This document shows, piece after piece, positions 56,420 through 64,000 of a stretch of 64,000 nucleotides of DNA. The stretch lies in NCBI GenBank assembly GCA_026415295.1, contig JAOAHJ010000010.1, forward strand, positions 1 through 64,000, written 5' to 3'. The notes under the pieces were generated by a model. That model had not been told where the DNA came from and searched no databases. It saw only the letters and a program-made list of their open reading frames with translations. The stretch's first letter is position 1. Each line of letters starts with the position of its first letter. Position numbers and translations under genes: made by a program. The DNA is from Spirochaetota bacterium (GTDB taxonomy: Bacteria; Spirochaetota; JAAYUW01; JAOAHJ01).

Positions 56420-57199
56420 ATGGATCTTGCAACAATAATTGGTGTAGCTGGTGGATTTGCAATGGTTTTATTTGGTATTATATCTGCAAGAGGCGATATA
56501 AGATTATTTATAGATGTACCATCAATTTTTATTACTTTTGGAGGAGGATTACTTGCCTGTTTAGTTGGAACTCCACTAAAAGATTTTATTAATATAGTAA
56601 AACTAGTAAAACTTGTTGCTTTCGTACAACCTTTTGATCCTGCATCCACTATAAGAATGTTAATTACATTTTCAGAAAAAGCTAGAAGAGAAGGAGTTCT
56701 TGCACTTGAAGATGATATTCAAGAACTTGATGATCAATTTTTGAAAAAAGCTATTCAACTTGTTGTTGATGGTACAGAACCAGAAAAAATAAAAAATATT
56801 CTTTACACAGAAATGGAATACATAAATCAAAGACATCAAGTTGGAATTAATATTTTTTCAGAATTAGATTCTCTTTTCCCAGCTTTTGGAATGATTGGAA
56901 CATTAATCGGACTAATAATAATGCTTGCAAACATGAATAATAAAGCTGCTTTAACCCAAGGTCTAGCAACTGCATTAATAACAACTTTGTATGGTTCAAT
57001 CCTTGCAAACATTATAGCTCATCCATTTTCTACAAAATTAAAAGAGAGAAATGATAAAGAGATGCTTATAAAAGAAATCATGATAGAAGGAACTCTTTCT
57101 ATTCAATCAGGAGAAAATCCAAGACTATTAAAGGATAAATTAATCTCTTTTCTTCCTAATGAATTAAGAGAACAATTGCAGAAAGAACTCGGAGACTAA
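56420..57199 (+). CDS. motA: MotA, stator ion-channel protein
   Basis: A 259-residue inner-membrane stator subunit with four TMs (about 2-22, 32-52, 150-170 and 180-200). Signature parts are ARREGVLALEDDIQELDDQFLKKA, with the charged loop that meets FliG, and SLFPAFGMIGTLIGLIIMLANM. It starts after GTGGGGG. The motB ATG follows its stop codon after three bases, so the pair is coupled. Confidence 0.97.
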   Translation: MDLATIIGVAGGFAMVLFGIISARGDIRLFIDVPSIFITFGGGLLACLVGTPLKDFINIVKLVKLVAFVQPFDPASTIRMLITFSEKARREGVLALEDDIQELDDQFLKKAIQLVVDGTEPEKIKNILYTEMEYINQRHQVGINIFSELDSLFPAFGMIGTLIGLIIMLANMNNKAALTQGLATALITTLYGSILANIIAHPFSTKLKERNDKEMLIKEIMIEGTLSIQSGENPRLLKDKLISFLPNELREQLQKELGD

Positions 57200-57202
57200 A
57201 TT

Positions 57203-57931
57203 ATGCCAAGAGAAAGGAAAAAACCTGAAGAAAAAGGAAAAGCTCCTTCTTGGTTAACAACCTTTGGTGATATGAATAACCTTCTTTTAACATTTTTTGT
57301 ACTTATGTTTACTACTGCTGAAATTGAAGGAGAAAAGATGAGATTAATTTTATCTCCTTTTACTGGAGGTCTTGGACCATTAAAAGGAGGTATGACTTTA
57401 GAAGCAGGACAATTTGCTGAAATGGGAAATAGTATAGAGGCACTTCCTGCACAAGAAAAAGGACAGAAATTATCAACTGCTATAGATAAAGCTATTTCAT
57501 ATCTCTCCCCAGAAATTATTGCAAAAAGAGTTCAAGTAAGATTAGATGAAAGAGGTGTTGTCATAACACTTGGTTCAGATTTTTATTTTAAACCTGGTTC
57601 TGCAGAATTAAATGATGACGCAAAAGAAGTCCTTCAAACTATATATAAAGTTTTACTTATGATTCCAAACTTAATTAAAGTTGAAGGACATACAGACAAT
57701 ACTCCGATTCCATTTGGCTCAAATCTTTTTCAACAATTTAAGGATAATTGGGAACTTTCAGGAGCAAGAGCTTTAGCTGTTTTAAGATATTTAACTGATT
57801 TAGGATTTGATCCTGAAAGAATATCCTATGCTGCTTATGGAGATACAAGGCCTATAGAAAGCAATGATACACCAGAAGGAAGGGCATACAATAGAAGAGT
57901 AGAGATAATAATACTAAGAGAAAGCAAATAA
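57203..57931 (+). CDS. motB: MotB, stator peptidoglycan-binding subunit
   Basis: A 242-residue stator subunit. N-terminal TM about 18-40 with the essential Asp in TTFGDMNNLLLTFFVLMF, then a plug/linker and a C-terminal OmpA-type peptidoglycan-binding domain about 120-240 (FKPGSAELNDDAKEVL, VEGHTDNTPIPF, NWELSGARALAVLRYL, RISYAAYGDTRPI and NRRVEIIIL). The GGAG ribosome site lies inside the end of motA. Confidence 0.97.
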   Translation: MPRERKKPEEKGKAPSWLTTFGDMNNLLLTFFVLMFTTAEIEGEKMRLILSPFTGGLGPLKGGMTLEAGQFAEMGNSIEALPAQEKGQKLSTAIDKAISYLSPEIIAKRVQVRLDERGVVITLGSDFYFKPGSAELNDDAKEVLQTIYKVLLMIPNLIKVEGHTDNTPIPFGSNLFQQFKDNWELSGARALAVLRYLTDLGFDPERISYAAYGDTRPIESNDTPEGRAYNRRVEIIILRESK

Positions 57932-58313: not shown

Positions 58314-58886
58314 ATGGCTGACAAATTAGATGATCTCAATAAAGGTGAAGAAGTTTTAGATGAAGAAGAACAAGAAGAAGGTGGTGGAGAAGAAGAGAAA
58401 CAAGCCAAAAAAGGTGTTAAACTAGTAGGCCCTGGATTTATTAAAATAATACTTATTATTATTGGGCTTATACTCTTAATTGCTATATCTGTAACAGTTT
58501 CATATTTTGTTACCAAAAGTATGGTTGAGAAACCACAAATGGAAGCAACTTATGAATCTACTACAGCAAAACTTGAACCTTACAGCACATGGGAACCAGG
58601 GGAATTCTCTATAAATACAGCTGATATTGATGAAGTTCATTTTGTTTCTGTTAAAATTGCTTTAGCTTTTGATAAAAATAATACTATTTTAGCTTCAGAG
58701 CTTGATAGTAGAAAAGCTCAAATTAGAGATATGATAAACAATATTTTAAGCTCAAAGTTTATGAGAGAACTGGTTACAATTGAAGGAAAAAATAATTTAA
58801 AACTTGAAATAAAAAATTCTATTAATAATATTTTAAAAAATGGTAGAATAAGTGATGTTTATTTTATAGACTTTGTTGTTCAATAA
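58314..58886 (+). CDS. fliL: FliL, stator-associated membrane protein
   Basis: A 190-residue protein: acidic N-terminal tail (Glu/Gly-rich, about 10-35), one TM about 43-66, and a periplasmic domain about 90-190 (FSINTADIDEVHFVSVKIALAF, SRKAQIRDMINNILSSKF, EIKNSINNILKNGRISDVYFIDFVVQ) that ends right after the last strand, as FliL does. FliL circles MotB plugs and supports torque. GGAGG precedes the ATG. Confidence 0.95.
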   Translation: MADKLDDLNKGEEVLDEEEQEEGGGEEEKQAKKGVKLVGPGFIKIILIIIGLILLIAISVTVSYFVTKSMVEKPQMEATYESTTAKLEPYSTWEPGEFSINTADIDEVHFVSVKIALAFDKNNTILASELDSRKAQIRDMINNILSSKFMRELVTIEGKNNLKLEIKNSINNILKNGRISDVYFIDFVVQ

Positions 58887-58971: not shown

Positions 58972-59991
58972 ATGACAGAAGTATTATCTCAGGATGAAAT
59001 AGACCAACTACTGAATGCTATATCAACTGGTGATACTAGTATAGAAACAGTTTCAAAAACTACTGTACAAAAAAAGATAAGAATATACGATTTTAAAAGA
59101 CCTTCTAGGTTTTCAAAAGAACAACAAAGAGCTATAAATATGATTTATGATTCTTTTTCTAGATTTTGCCAAACTACTTTATCAGCTCTTTTAAGAACAC
59201 CTATCCATTTTAGAGTTGCTTCTGTAGATGAGTTAACTTATGAAGAATTCACAAGATCAATTCCTAACCCAACCACTATGGCAATTTTAAATATGGACCC
59301 ATTAAAAGGAAATGCAATTTTTGAAATAGATCCATCAATTTCATTTGCAATTATTGATAGAATATTCGGAGGACAGGGCAAGAGTTTTGAAAATGCAAAC
59401 AGAGAATTAACAGATATTGAGATTGCTGTTATAGAATCTATTATTGTTAAATTATTATCAAACCTAAGAGAAGCATGGGCAAACTTTGTAGATTTAAGGC
59501 CAAGGTTAAGTACTATTGAAACAAACCCATCTTTTGCAACTATTGTTCCCCCTACTGACATGACAATTCTTGTAACTCTAGAATCAAAAATTGGAGATGT
59601 TGAAGGAATGAGTAATTTCTGTTTACCACACTTAACACTTGAACCTATTTTAAATAAATTAACACCTCAAATATGGTTCTCTTCAATTTCAAAAACAACA
59701 ACTGCAGAAAATTTTACAGCATTAAAAAGCAATATAGAAAATGTTCCTGTTGAAATGAGCGCTATACTTGGAACTACCAGACTTAAAATAAAAGATGTAT
59801 TAGAATTTGATGTAAATGATGTAATATTATTAAATAAAGATGTAAAAAGTGACATAGATATTTATGTTGGAGACAAACTAAAATTTAAAGGAAAGCCTGG
59901 TATTCATCAAGGAAACCTTTCAGTTCAAATAACTAAAGTACTTGAAAATAAAGAATTAGATGAAATTTTAACGGAGGATGAAAATGGGTGA
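58972..59991 (+). CDS. fliM: FliM, flagellar switch protein
   Basis: A 339-residue C-ring component. The N-terminal CheY-P binding motif is LSQDEIDQLLNAI. The middle CheC-like domain (about 40-230) has YDFKRPSRFSKEQQRAI, RDLRPRLS-type LRPRLSTIETNP and the C-terminal SpoA domain (about 255-335), VPVEMSAILGTTRLKI, DVNDVILLNKD. Its last eight bases overlap fliY. Confidence 0.97.
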   Translation: MTEVLSQDEIDQLLNAISTGDTSIETVSKTTVQKKIRIYDFKRPSRFSKEQQRAINMIYDSFSRFCQTTLSALLRTPIHFRVASVDELTYEEFTRSIPNPTTMAILNMDPLKGNAIFEIDPSISFAIIDRIFGGQGKSFENANRELTDIEIAVIESIIVKLLSNLREAWANFVDLRPRLSTIETNPSFATIVPPTDMTILVTLESKIGDVEGMSNFCLPHLTLEPILNKLTPQIWFSSISKTTTAENFTALKSNIENVPVEMSAILGTTRLKIKDVLEFDVNDVILLNKDVKSDIDIYVGDKLKFKGKPGIHQGNLSVQITKVLENKELDEILTEDENG

Positions 59992-61042
59992 TCAAGCATT
60001 ATCACAAGATGAAATAGATGCTTTACTTCAAGGCTCTGATGAAATTTTTGAGGATAGTTCCGCTGCTTCTACCTTTCCTGGAACAATTGATTCCCTATCT
60101 GGAGATGATCTTCAAAAACTTAGAAATTTATATCTTGATGTTCTCGATTCACAATCAAATGCTTTGACTACTCTTTTCCAAAAAGATGTTATAATAAGTT
60201 CACCAGTTGTGGAACTTATTAATAAAGACTCATTTATGGATAGGATTCCAGTTCCATTTTTACAAATAAATATTCCATTTACTGAAAATATAGTGGGGGA
60301 AAATATATATATTTTTCTTGAAAATGATGCTATTAAAATTGGTTCCATTATGATGGGGCAAGATGTTGCTGAACTTACTGAAATGCTAATATCCGCAGTT
60401 GCAGAAGCTTCATCTCAACTTGTAGGCAATACACTAACAACTTTTTCAAACAAATATAAAACTCAAATAAAAACTGGGTCTCCATCCCAAATTGTTGTTA
60501 GAAATTATAGTGATGCTATATTACCTCCTGATGAATCTTTTATTTTAATTTCTTATAATATTAAAATAGATAATTATAATTCAAAATTCTATCAAATTTT
60601 ATCATTAAATGCTGCTAAAGGTTTAGTAAATATGAGTTCACCCTCTGTTTCTTTTACTCAACCTCAACCTAAAATGGATAGAATGCAACCATCTTCATCT
60701 TATCAAGCTACAACTCCATCATCTCAACAATTTCAGACAGCCCAATTTTCAAGACTTGAGCCAGTTTTAACTCCAGAGGAAAAAAAGAATATATCTCTTA
60801 TACTTGATGTTGAAATGGAAGTAACAGTTGAACTAGGTAGAACTAAAAAAACTATTAAAGAAATTCTATCTATGGGTGAAGGTACTATAGTTGAGCTTGA
60901 TAGGCTTGCAGGTGAAGCTGTAGATTTATTAGTAAATGGTAAAAAAATTGCAAAAGGTGAAGTAATAGTTATTGAAGAAAACTTTGGATTAAGAATCACT
61001 GAAATATTAAGTAAAAGTGAAAGATTAAATTCTTTGAGTTAA
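59984..61042 (+). CDS. fliY: FliY/FliN, switch protein with CheC-like domain
   Basis: A 352-residue C-ring protein. N-terminal LSQDEIDALLQG copies the FliM CheY-binding motif. The middle part (about 25-210) is CheC-like (LTEMLISAVAEASSQLVGNTLT) and the C-terminal SpoA domain (about 265-350) is FliN-like (LDVEMEVTVELGRTKKTIKEIL, VDLLVNGKKIAKGEVIVI). An ATG six bases upstream directly follows GGAGG, so the ATG at 59984 is the better start. CheY-P dephosphorylation is possible but the catalytic motif was not confirmed. Confidence 0.93.
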   Translation: MGDQALSQDEIDALLQGSDEIFEDSSAASTFPGTIDSLSGDDLQKLRNLYLDVLDSQSNALTTLFQKDVIISSPVVELINKDSFMDRIPVPFLQINIPFTENIVGENIYIFLENDAIKIGSIMMGQDVAELTEMLISAVAEASSQLVGNTLTTFSNKYKTQIKTGSPSQIVVRNYSDAILPPDESFILISYNIKIDNYNSKFYQILSLNAAKGLVNMSSPSVSFTQPQPKMDRMQPSSSYQATTPSSQQFQTAQFSRLEPVLTPEEKKNISLILDVEMEVTVELGRTKKTIKEILSMGEGTIVELDRLAGEAVDLLVNGKKIAKGEVIVIEENFGLRITEILSKSERLNSLS

Positions 61043-61091: not shown

Positions 61092-61724
61092 TTGAAAAAT
61101 TTCACCAATAGTTTTTGCCTATTTTTTTCAAAAAATTTTTTAAATAATAGGAAAGTTTTTATATTATTTTTTATTATTTATATAATATTTTTTTTATTTT
61201 TTAATTTATATGTGTATGGACAGGAAAATAATAATAACTTAGACACTAAATTTAATGAATTAAAAAAAAGTGTTGAAAATCAACAAAATGATCAAAACAT
61301 TAATTTAGAACCTACAAGACTTCCTATTTTAAGAACAATTTTAATTTTAATTGTATTAATTATTATATTTTTTATTTCCCAATATTTTATTAAAAGAAAA
61401 AATATAAATTTAACTATTAATAACCAAATTTCAGAAATTATATATAAAGAACCACTTACAAATAAATCTTTTTTTGGTATAATAAAAATTTTTGATAAAT
61501 ATTTTGCGGCTATTATTGATGAATCGATTAAAATAATATATGAAATAACAAACCAGGAAGAAATAGATACAGCAATATTACTTAAATCTAAAAATACGAA
61601 TCCTAATAAAAGTTTTTTTGAACTAATAAAAAATATTGCAACAGGTTCAAATAACCAAAATTTTGATGGTCTAAAAAAGATTAAAGAAAAATTAAATTCA
61701 ATTAAGTGGAGAAAAAATGAATAA
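61092..61724 (+). CDS. fliO: FliO (FliZ), export-apparatus membrane protein
   Basis: A 210-residue poorly conserved protein. N-terminal signal-like hydrophobic segment about 22-43, a polar linker, TM about 77-97 (LRTILILIVLIIIFFISQYFI), then a cytosolic part. It fits FliO by position after fliY and by architecture; sequence alone would not prove it. TTG start at 61092 with AGGAG ahead. The end overlaps the next gene by eight bases. Confidence 0.75.
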   Translation: MKNFTNSFCLFFSKNFLNNRKVFILFFIIYIIFFLFFNLYVYGQENNNNLDTKFNELKKSVENQQNDQNINLEPTRLPILRTILILIVLIIIFFISQYFIKRKNINLTINNQISEIIYKEPLTNKSFFGIIKIFDKYFAAIIDESIKIIYEITNQEEIDTAILLKSKNTNPNKSFFELIKNIATGSNNQNFDGLKKIKEKLNSIKWRKNE

Positions 61725-62943
61725 TCTCCAACTAAATATTGTTAGGCATAAAGCTAATTCTTATATAATGATTGAAGGTGATCATAATTCAAGTTTATTT
61801 TATATTATTCAAGAAGGAGTAGTTAAAATAAATGATACCGTTTCTAAACTTCTTGGCTACGGTGAACAAACTCTTCAAAAAGGGGACTTCTTTGGGGTTG
61901 TCTCTTCAATGAGCAAATTTCCAAGAATTGAAACTGCTTTTTCTCAAACAGATACTTTGTTGATTGCAATTAAAAATGATCAATTCCCATTATTATTACA
62001 AAAATCTCCAAATATAGCATTAAAAATTATTAAAAAGTTTTCAACAGATTTAAGGCATTATGATGAATATATTGCAAAATCAAATATAAAAAGTAGTGGA
62101 ATGGTTAATGTAAATGAAGAAGATGTATTGTTCAACAATGGCAATTATTATCTTTCAAAAAATAACTATAACTTTGCTTATAGAATTTTTTCAAACTATA
62201 ATTTAAGTTATCCTGAAGGCAAATATAAAAAGCAAGCTAATGAAAAAATAAATCTAGTAAAACCATATATAAATCCTTTATATACAGAACTTAAACTACA
62301 GGGTTTAAATGCTATAGTTCCAGAAAATTTTCTTATTTTCTCAGAAGGGGAAATAGGAGATAAACTATATATAATCCAGAAAGGAAAAATAAAAATTACA
62401 AAAATCATTAACAATAGTGAAATATTAATAGCTGTCTTAAAGGATGGGGACATTTTTGGTGAGATGGCTTTACTTGAAGATAAACCAAGAACAGCAAATG
62501 CTATAACTTCTGAAAAAACAAATCTCTTAGTTGTTGATAGAAAAAATTTTAATTTTATGGTAATTAATCAACCAGCTATGGCTACAAAACTTATAGAACT
62601 TTTATCCGAAAGAATATGGGTTGCTTATAGACAAATACAAAACACATTTATCAATGATCCTATGGGCAAATTATGGGACATGCTATTAATCCAATTGTTA
62701 AAAAATAGAGTACAAATTATTCCTAAAGGACAGTTTCAATGCCCATTTGGAATTAAAGATTTAATAAAAATGGTTGGATTATCTGAGGCTGACTTAACAA
62801 AATATTATAATGAATTAATTGGAACAAAAAAGATAGAAGAAATAAATGGTAATTTATTTATTAAAGATGTATCTATAGTTGAAAAACAAGCTGAATATTA
62901 TAAAAAAATCCTAGAAATTCAGAGCAAAATTAAAAAAAATTAA
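61717..62943 (+). CDS. CRP-like regulator with two cyclic-nucleotide-binding domains
   Basis: A 408-residue protein: CNBD1 about 5-115, a helical TPR-like linker about 125-185 (YYLSKNNYNFAYRIFSNYN), CNBD2 about 195-310 and a winged-helix-like end about 315-395 (CPFGIKDLIKMVGLSEADLTKYYNELIGTKKI). CNBD2 has an intact phosphate cassette (FGEMALLEDKPRTANA), CNBD1 a degenerate one (FFGVVSSMSKFPRIETA). It could be a DNA-binding cyclic-nucleotide sensor. The ATG lies inside the end of fliO, with GGAG ahead, so it is translationally coupled to the flagellar operon; fliP is expected here. Confidence 0.87.
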   Translation: MNNLQLNIVRHKANSYIMIEGDHNSSLFYIIQEGVVKINDTVSKLLGYGEQTLQKGDFFGVVSSMSKFPRIETAFSQTDTLLIAIKNDQFPLLLQKSPNIALKIIKKFSTDLRHYDEYIAKSNIKSSGMVNVNEEDVLFNNGNYYLSKNNYNFAYRIFSNYNLSYPEGKYKKQANEKINLVKPYINPLYTELKLQGLNAIVPENFLIFSEGEIGDKLYIIQKGKIKITKIINNSEILIAVLKDGDIFGEMALLEDKPRTANAITSEKTNLLVVDRKNFNFMVINQPAMATKLIELLSERIWVAYRQIQNTFINDPMGKLWDMLLIQLLKNRVQIIPKGQFQCPFGIKDLIKMVGLSEADLTKYYNELIGTKKIEEINGNLFIKDVSIVEKQAEYYKKILEIQSKIKKN

Positions 62944-62955
62944 AGGAGTTAAAAA

Positions 62956-64000
62956 TTGCCCTCATTTGATGATAGAATAATTCAAAAAGGAGTCATTTTC
63001 CCAAAAGGTGCTATTGTTTTAGATTCAAATCAAAACTTAAAAAAATTAAACTATATATTAAATGGAAGTTTATCTCTTTTTTTTGAAAATATTTCCAATC
63101 AAGATAAATTTGTTTTTAACTGTTTTTCAAAATCTATACTATTCCCTTCATTACTTTTAACAAACGAACCAAATTTTCTTAAAATTATTGCTAATGAAGA
63201 TGTAACAATAGACTCTTATCCATTCCAATTAAATCCAATTCTATTTTTTAAGCAAAATTCTCCTTTTACAAAAATTTTTATAAAATCAATCTTAATAGAT
63301 TTTAATAATGTTATAAAACAAATAAAATCTTTCATGCAATTATATTTTATGGTTGAAAGACTATTTGATAATTTTCTTATTTTTGTTGGCAACATTAACA
63401 ATTCAATGATTATAATGAGTTTAAGCAATGCAGATAGAACACTATATGAAAAAATAGAAGATTATAAGAGAAAATTTCAAAAAAATGGAGGATTTTTCCC
63501 AAATGATTTCAATATTAATTTTTTTAATCAAGATTTCTCAAGATATTTAGAAAAAAATTATAGTTTTTCAATTGATCACTTAAATTGTGACCCGGAAGGA
63601 ATTTCATTAATGCTTTCTTATTCTAAAATTCCTCAAAATATAATAGATTCTCTATTGTCTTCAAACCCTGATTTTATATACTACCTTTTTAAATCTTTTT
63701 CTAATGATTTAAATTCAATTTTAAAATATATAAAAGAATATTATATCTCTCTTGATAATAAATTAAATCTTCTTTTTTCTGATGAAAATAATCTTTGCAA
63801 TAACATTTATTCCTATATAGAATCAACTTATAAAAAGAATAATGGTATAAAAGAAGATTTTAAAAAATTCATTTCTGAAAATTTTAACAAAATATCATCA
63901 ATGTATAAAAATTATTTCAATATTATTTCACTGCCTTTTGTTCTAAATCAAAAAACAAACTCATTAATTTATTCATCTATTTCAAACTCTTTAGAAAATA
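62956..64000 (+). CDS. cyclic-nucleotide-binding-like protein, cut at the window edge
   Basis: An open frame of at least 348 codons, no stop before the end of the window. Start TTG at 62956; AGGAG at 62944-62948 supports it, 12 bases after the previous stop. Residues 5-75 follow the CNBD pattern (IIQKGVIFPKGAIVLDSN, KLNYILNGSLSLFFEN) but no Gly-Glu/Arg phosphate cassette is seen, so ligand binding is doubtful. The remainder is helical, Asn/Ser/Phe/Lys-rich and unfamiliar. It probably acts with the two-CNBD protein. Confidence 0.75.
   Translation, partial: MPSFDDRIIQKGVIFPKGAIVLDSNQNLKKLNYILNGSLSLFFENISNQDKFVFNCFSKSILFPSLLLTNEPNFLKIIANEDVTIDSYPFQLNPILFFKQNSPFTKIFIKSILIDFNNVIKQIKSFMQLYFMVERLFDNFLIFVGNINNSMIIMSLSNADRTLYEKIEDYKRKFQKNGGFFPNDFNINFFNQDFSRYLEKNYSFSIDHLNCDPEGISLMLSYSKIPQNIIDSLLSSNPDFIYYLFKSFSNDLNSILKYIKEYYISLDNKLNLLFSDENNLCNNIYSYIESTYKKNNGIKEDFKKFISENFNKISSMYKNYFNIISLPFVLNQKTNSLIYSSISNSLEN

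Follow-up and report, generated by a model that had tools for sequence, protein, structure and literature searches.

A predicted cyclic-nucleotide receptor lies in a conserved flagellar block of one spirochaete order and co-occurs with class III cyclases across the phylum

The question raised by this locus is why two genes for proteins with cyclic-nucleotide-binding domains (CNBDs) directly follow fliO in a spirochaete flagellar run. The window (the whole stretch of DNA that was analyzed, 64,000 nucleotides) covers positions 1-64000 of contig C10 (JAOAHJ010000010.1), which is 69051 long. The two genes are called gene 1 and gene 2 here. A first-pass annotation had described them as a pair fused to the end of the run in place of fliP, and had proposed a second-messenger sensor that controls motility. 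Our reading is that gene 1 is a spirochaete receptor for the product of class III cyclases and that in this order it is wired to motility together with gene 2. We are evenly balanced between accepting and doubting this reading as a whole.

Layout of the locus

The features are listed in Table 1. Gene 1 overlaps fliO by 8 bases and gene 2 starts 12 bases past gene 1, which confirmed the first-pass coordinates. They are separate genes, and nothing is fused. The pair does stand where fliP is absent: fliP is on another contig of the same genome, C23, in the block fliP-fliQ-fliR-flhB-flhA-flhF-flhG. It does not end the run. On the whole contig, fliD lies 238 bases 3' of gene 2. Between fliL and fliD, the coding strand showed no terminator-like site.

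The name fliO is reasonable for the small membrane protein, though weak by its own match. All four fliO candidates of the order matched TIGR03500 at E ≤ 1, the best at 2.2e-7. The window's own protein gave E = 0.87 and 9.7 bits (cut-off, 55.25).

Table 1. Features of the flagellar run, gene 1 and gene 2 (contig C10 positions)
Feature	Position	Strand	Evidence or remark
motA	56420..57199	+	PF01618 1.9e-30
motB	57203..57931	+	PF00691 2e-21, PF13677 3.4e-13
fliL	58314..58886	+	PF03748 1.8e-18
fliM	58972..59991	+	PF02154 2.7e-71
fliN/fliY	59978..61042	+	PF01052 1.7e-24
Probable fliO, small membrane protein	61092..61724	+	TIGR03500 and position after fliN; stop TAA at 61722-61724
Gene 1, 408 aa: CNBD1, helical linker, CNBD2, winged helix, C-terminal helix	61717..62943	+	ATG at 61717; stop ends at 62943; Shine-Dalgarno-like GGAG upstream
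Gene 1 CNBD1, residues about 7-125	61735..62091	+	Phosphate-binding motif lost family-wide
Gene 1 CNBD2, residues about 196-310	62302..62646	+	Intact phosphate-binding cassette
CNBD2 motif, residues 244-263	62446-62505	+	
Gene 1 CRP-like winged helix, residues about 315-384	62659..62868	+	Recognition helix variable
Gene 2, 844 aa (N-terminal 348 in window)	62956..64000	+	TTG at 62956; AAAGGAG upstream; runs on to C10 position 65490 (whole contig read)
Gene 2 degenerate N-terminal CNBD and long C-helix, residues about 10-146	62983..63393	+	

Gene 1: domain architecture and nucleotide pocket

Gene 1 was searched for in 60 relative genomes, and 41 orthologues were aligned. All 60 genomes gave a match, most with a full-length relative. 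A scan returned 569 relatives; the best 80 of the 569 came from records titled as spirochaetes, except for one titled only "bacterium". Among plasmid records, those of Leptospira gave only partial CNBD matches. The orthologues share one architecture across the phylum: a degenerate CNBD1, a helical linker, CNBD2 and a CRP-like winged helix. PF00027 matched gene 1 at 1.7e-33 in two stretches, which are the two CNBDs. The AF2 model (pLDDT 87.9) contains CNBD1, three linker helices, CNBD2, a long C-helix, the winged helix and a last helix. In profile searches gene 1 matched the tandem CNBDs of PKG and PKA and whole CRP-family chains, with residues 196-389 aligned to whole CRP/FNR chains (e.g., 3h3u, 2.3e-30).

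The two pockets differ. CNBD2 has the phosphate-binding motif in 41 of 41 orthologues, and its G248, E249, R258, A260 and A262 are invariant. CNBD1 has the motif in none of the 41; its Glu position is V or L in every one, and its Arg is kept in only 15. Prediction of gene 1 as a cyclic-nucleotide receptor is well supported by these residues. The ligand is most likely cAMP, and cGMP is also possible. The residue after the CNBD2 Arg is Ser or Thr in 39 of 41 orthologues and Ser in Escherichia coli CRP. It does not decide between the two ligands.

The PKA regulatory subunit and PKG carry tandem CNBDs as gene 1 does and were its best Foldseek matches by E-value. Unlike them, gene 1 has no kinase or inhibitor segment and has lost the CNBD1 pocket motif in all 41 orthologues. 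Whole-chain TM-scores were 0.2-0.3 by query length, which indicates a different domain arrangement. A search for a kinase domain in gene 1 and gene 2 found none.

Does the winged helix bind DNA?

Gene 1 could be a CRP-type transcription factor. It would then bind DNA when triggered by cAMP and regulate flagellar or other genes, and its operon position would be autoregulatory or incidental. It resembles the CRP/FNR receptors (E. coli CRP, Mycobacterium tuberculosis CRP and GlxR) in the CNBD2 pocket motif, the C-helix and the winged helix, and it aligns with their whole chains. Those receptors have a single CNBD in about 200-240 aa, whereas gene 1 has two in 408 aa. It adds an N-terminal CNBD without a pocket and a helical linker, and here it sits in a flagellar block. 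Its recognition helix does not keep the equivalents of R180, E181 and R185, the canonical CRP contacts. The helix has an internal glycine in 26 of 41 orthologues and a mean net charge of -0.98, against +0.35 in the CRP set. The same genomes also carry separate CRP-like proteins. We considered the variability of the helix as an argument against DNA binding and dropped it as nondiscriminating: in the phylum's single-domain CRP-like proteins this helix varies about as much as in gene 1 (mean entropy, 2.42 versus 2.64 bits), so the variability is compatible with DNA binding. Sequence-specific DNA binding by the gene 1 winged helix is possible but unsupported. We regard the transcription-factor explanation as rather unlikely.

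Gene 2: a CNBD without a pocket and a conserved C-terminal domain

Relatives of gene 2 occur in 56 of the 60 relative genomes. Its N-terminal domain has the CNBD fold by profile (5.5e-10) and by AF2 model, and the phosphate-binding motif is present in 0 of the 33 copies compared. The first-pass annotation had given both proteins the CNBD fold, with CNBD2 apparently able to bind a nucleotide and with CNBD1 and gene 2 apparently degenerate. The profiles, models and motif counts bear this out.

The conserved part of gene 2 was not described in that annotation. It is a large C-terminal domain of ~430 aa (residues about 405-843), preceded by residues 332-402 that are disordered in the model. The domain also occurs without the CNBD in proteins of about 490-570 aa from other families (hhalign probability 100%, 4.4e-43). 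It had no Pfam match and no PDB fold match. A single-sequence scan of the contig collection with gene 2 gave no match. Gene 2 thus adds a widespread spirochaete domain without a Pfam or PDB counterpart.

We dropped the idea that gene 2 strictly tracks flagella. It is absent from some flagellated lineages (family f44 and genus f10/g35) and is fragmentary in some genomes of family f36. The f36 fragments of the C-terminal domain contain stops (G100 C1:406052-406739 and G075 C1:412831-413037). Other f36 genomes, e.g., G233, have the domain intact, and decay appears to be in progress.

Gene 1 follows class III cyclases

We compared 247 genomes of the phylum for FliM, gene 1, gene 2 and class III cyclases (PF00211). 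For the co-occurrence count we used the 144 genomes with a completeness of at least 95%. In 143 of these, gene 1 and a cyclase are either both present (98 genomes) or both absent (45). One genome has a cyclase without gene 1, and none has gene 1 without a cyclase. The exception, G237, encodes a cyclase and FliP. Fisher's test gave p = 9e-37, which ignores shared ancestry; a hand count by lineages gave ~1e-5. We take the pattern to reflect several co-losses. The window's genome has 8 PF00211 matches.

The lineages without cyclase and gene 1 are f10/g10, f10/g80, f36, f44 (one genome), f47 and f49. Judged by size and gene content, f10/g10 probably corresponds to Brachyspira, f36 to the Borrelia group and f49 to Sphaerochaeta. 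For Borrelia burgdorferi, no annotated CRP has been reported, and its only cyclase is described as one of class IV (PMC8186283). Single-domain CRP-like proteins persist in most f10/g10 genomes, so these have not undergone a general loss of CNBD proteins. Genus f10/g35 (G042 and G050) retains gene 1 together with a single class III cyclase but has no gene 2; another genus of the family, f10/g10, has neither cyclase nor gene 1.

Family f49 is the only one of those checked in which FliM and FliP are both missing throughout. It also lacks class III cyclases, so its profile gives no way to tell a flagellar role from one tied to cyclases. Gene 1 is absent from this nonflagellate family and also from the flagellated f44 (as is gene 2) and f36. 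The flagellated f36, f47 and f10/g10 have neither gene 1 nor cyclase, which shows that gene 1 follows cyclases and not flagella. Family f44 had been taken as nonflagellate on a weak or missing FliM. FliP is clearly present there. We therefore dropped that assignment, and with it the idea that gene 1 depends on cyclase and flagella together; G237 stands as an exception to the cyclase rule.

Placement of the pair in the order and elsewhere

The order motA-motB-fliL-fliM-fliN-fliO-gene1-gene2 is identical in the four genomes compared from this order, which represent two families. Overlaps between fliO and gene 1 are 4-8 bases. Gaps between gene 1 and gene 2 are 12-20 bases (16-20 in the three genomes besides the window's). 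In the two other genomes whose contigs extend far enough, fliD again follows gene 2. Gene 1 identity across the two families is about 50%. With the same block in all four genomes, the placement is old and not a recent insertion. The run was therefore interrupted after fliO, and the pair installed there, before the two families diverged. The continuation through fliP, fliQ, fliR and flhB to flhA, which the first-pass annotation had described for other spirochaetes, was seen in three other families as an unbroken run from fliM (L212, L213 and L235).

The fliP blocks of the order (L003 and L209-L211) are similar: pfk adjoins fliP in the three genomes besides the window's, and on C23 of the latter the two are separated by a response-regulator/histidine-kinase-like gene.

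A further result beyond the first-pass annotation is that in nearly all of the other sampled spirochaetes gene 1 and gene 2 lie apart, unlinked and with mostly unrelated neighbors. In families f11 and f20, gene 2 lies 6-11 bases upstream of fliQ (PF01313 7.7e-26 for the f11 copy), and in f11 fliR is next after fliQ. These two families group together in the gene 1 tree, apart from the window's order. This is a second, independent flagellar association of gene 2. A rough estimate of the chance of a flagellar neighbor is about one in 20 families, so one such clade is about what chance could give and its weight is modest.

These neighborhoods bear on another explanation, in which gene 1 serves cyclases as a general receptor with a nonmotility output (e.g., metabolism or envelope) and its flagellar place is a chance join kept for expression. 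In favor of it, gene 1 stands alone among miscellaneous neighbors in most families and occurs where cyclases do rather than where flagella do. However, two CNBD-fold genes that are unlinked elsewhere share one flagellar block here, with coupled starts held across two families, and gene 2 joined fliQ independently in another clade. We consider a general receptor with a chance placement improbable. A recent insertion or assembly artifact at the operon end is barely credible: the contig does end 3.6 kb past gene 2, but the same gene order stands on independent contigs of three other genomes, and both genes are found phylum-wide. The counter-case in the first-pass annotation, with fliP directly after gene 2 and the pair absent from relatives, is ruled out by this distribution and by the place of fliP.

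Proposed role

In the cyclase-receptor reading that we prefer, a ligand made by a cyclase would bind CNBD2, and CNBD1, its pocket lost, would play a structural role. A partner may receive the ligand-dependent change through the C-helix, the winged helix or CNBD1. Expression of gene 1 in this order, and probably its transcription, would be shared with the motor switch genes and gene 2. The gene 2 CNBD would be a nonbinding scaffold and its conserved C-terminal domain the probable effector. Cyclase output would then tune flagellar assembly or rotation. A motility output in this order is likely, mainly from gene order. Of the sensor proposed in the first-pass annotation, the sensing part fits gene 1, given its CNBD2 pocket and its co-occurrence with cyclases; control of motility is suggested by placement.

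In Leptospira kobayashii, cAMP made in light (LprA) alters swimming within a second (PMC9043183). The cyclase is known there, the receptor has not been identified, and the authors leave direct action on the motor undetermined (PMC9043183). The likeness to our locus is that of a spirochaete in which cAMP alters swimming; there only the cyclase is known. That finding makes a nontranscriptional receptor plausible.

In one form of this reading, gene 1 would be a direct cAMP receptor whose action on the flagellar motor needs no transcription, and gene 2 would be the partner that faces the flagellum. We offer this form only tentatively and think it unlikely. PilZ/YcgR proteins are c-di-GMP motor brakes. 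Gene 1 would be their cyclic-mononucleotide counterpart: like them a flagellum-linked second-messenger receptor, it differs in messenger and fold. A PilZ gene follows gene 1 by 6-12 bases in f11 and f20 (L060:10380-10730 and L048:1829-2185; PF07238 1.9e-12 and 3.8e-12). This adjacency suggests cross talk between cAMP and c-di-GMP.

No published description of gene 1 or gene 2 was found in the literature searched. Gene 1 is of a known kind, a CNBD protein. As far as that literature shows, its distribution, pocket pattern, flagellar placement and partner are undescribed. Spirochaetes carry many class III cyclases, and gene 1 is a testable candidate for the receptor through which cAMP affects swimming. 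With a presence that follows cyclases, a competent-looking pocket and a place in the motor block, it offers a specific gene and domain to target in cultivable spirochaetes.

Other neighbors and a second CNBD pair

Genes for STAS-domain proteins lie directly downstream of gene 1 in family f6 or of gene 2 in family f17 (L046:10633-10938, L073:2276-2578 and L100:8589-8999). A FapA gene (PF03961, confirmed in L043) adjoins gene 1 in convergent orientation in f5 and f23 (L037, L043, L045 and L071). A FapA gene is also found near gene 2 (L099). Many spirochaetes encode a second tandem pair of CNBD genes, of about 345-370 aa and about 220-245 aa, the latter CRP-like (e.g., G004:C56:4744-6301, G039:C153:794-2324 and G020:C1:2012666-2014237). 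The first member of this pair resembles the N-terminal half of gene 1.
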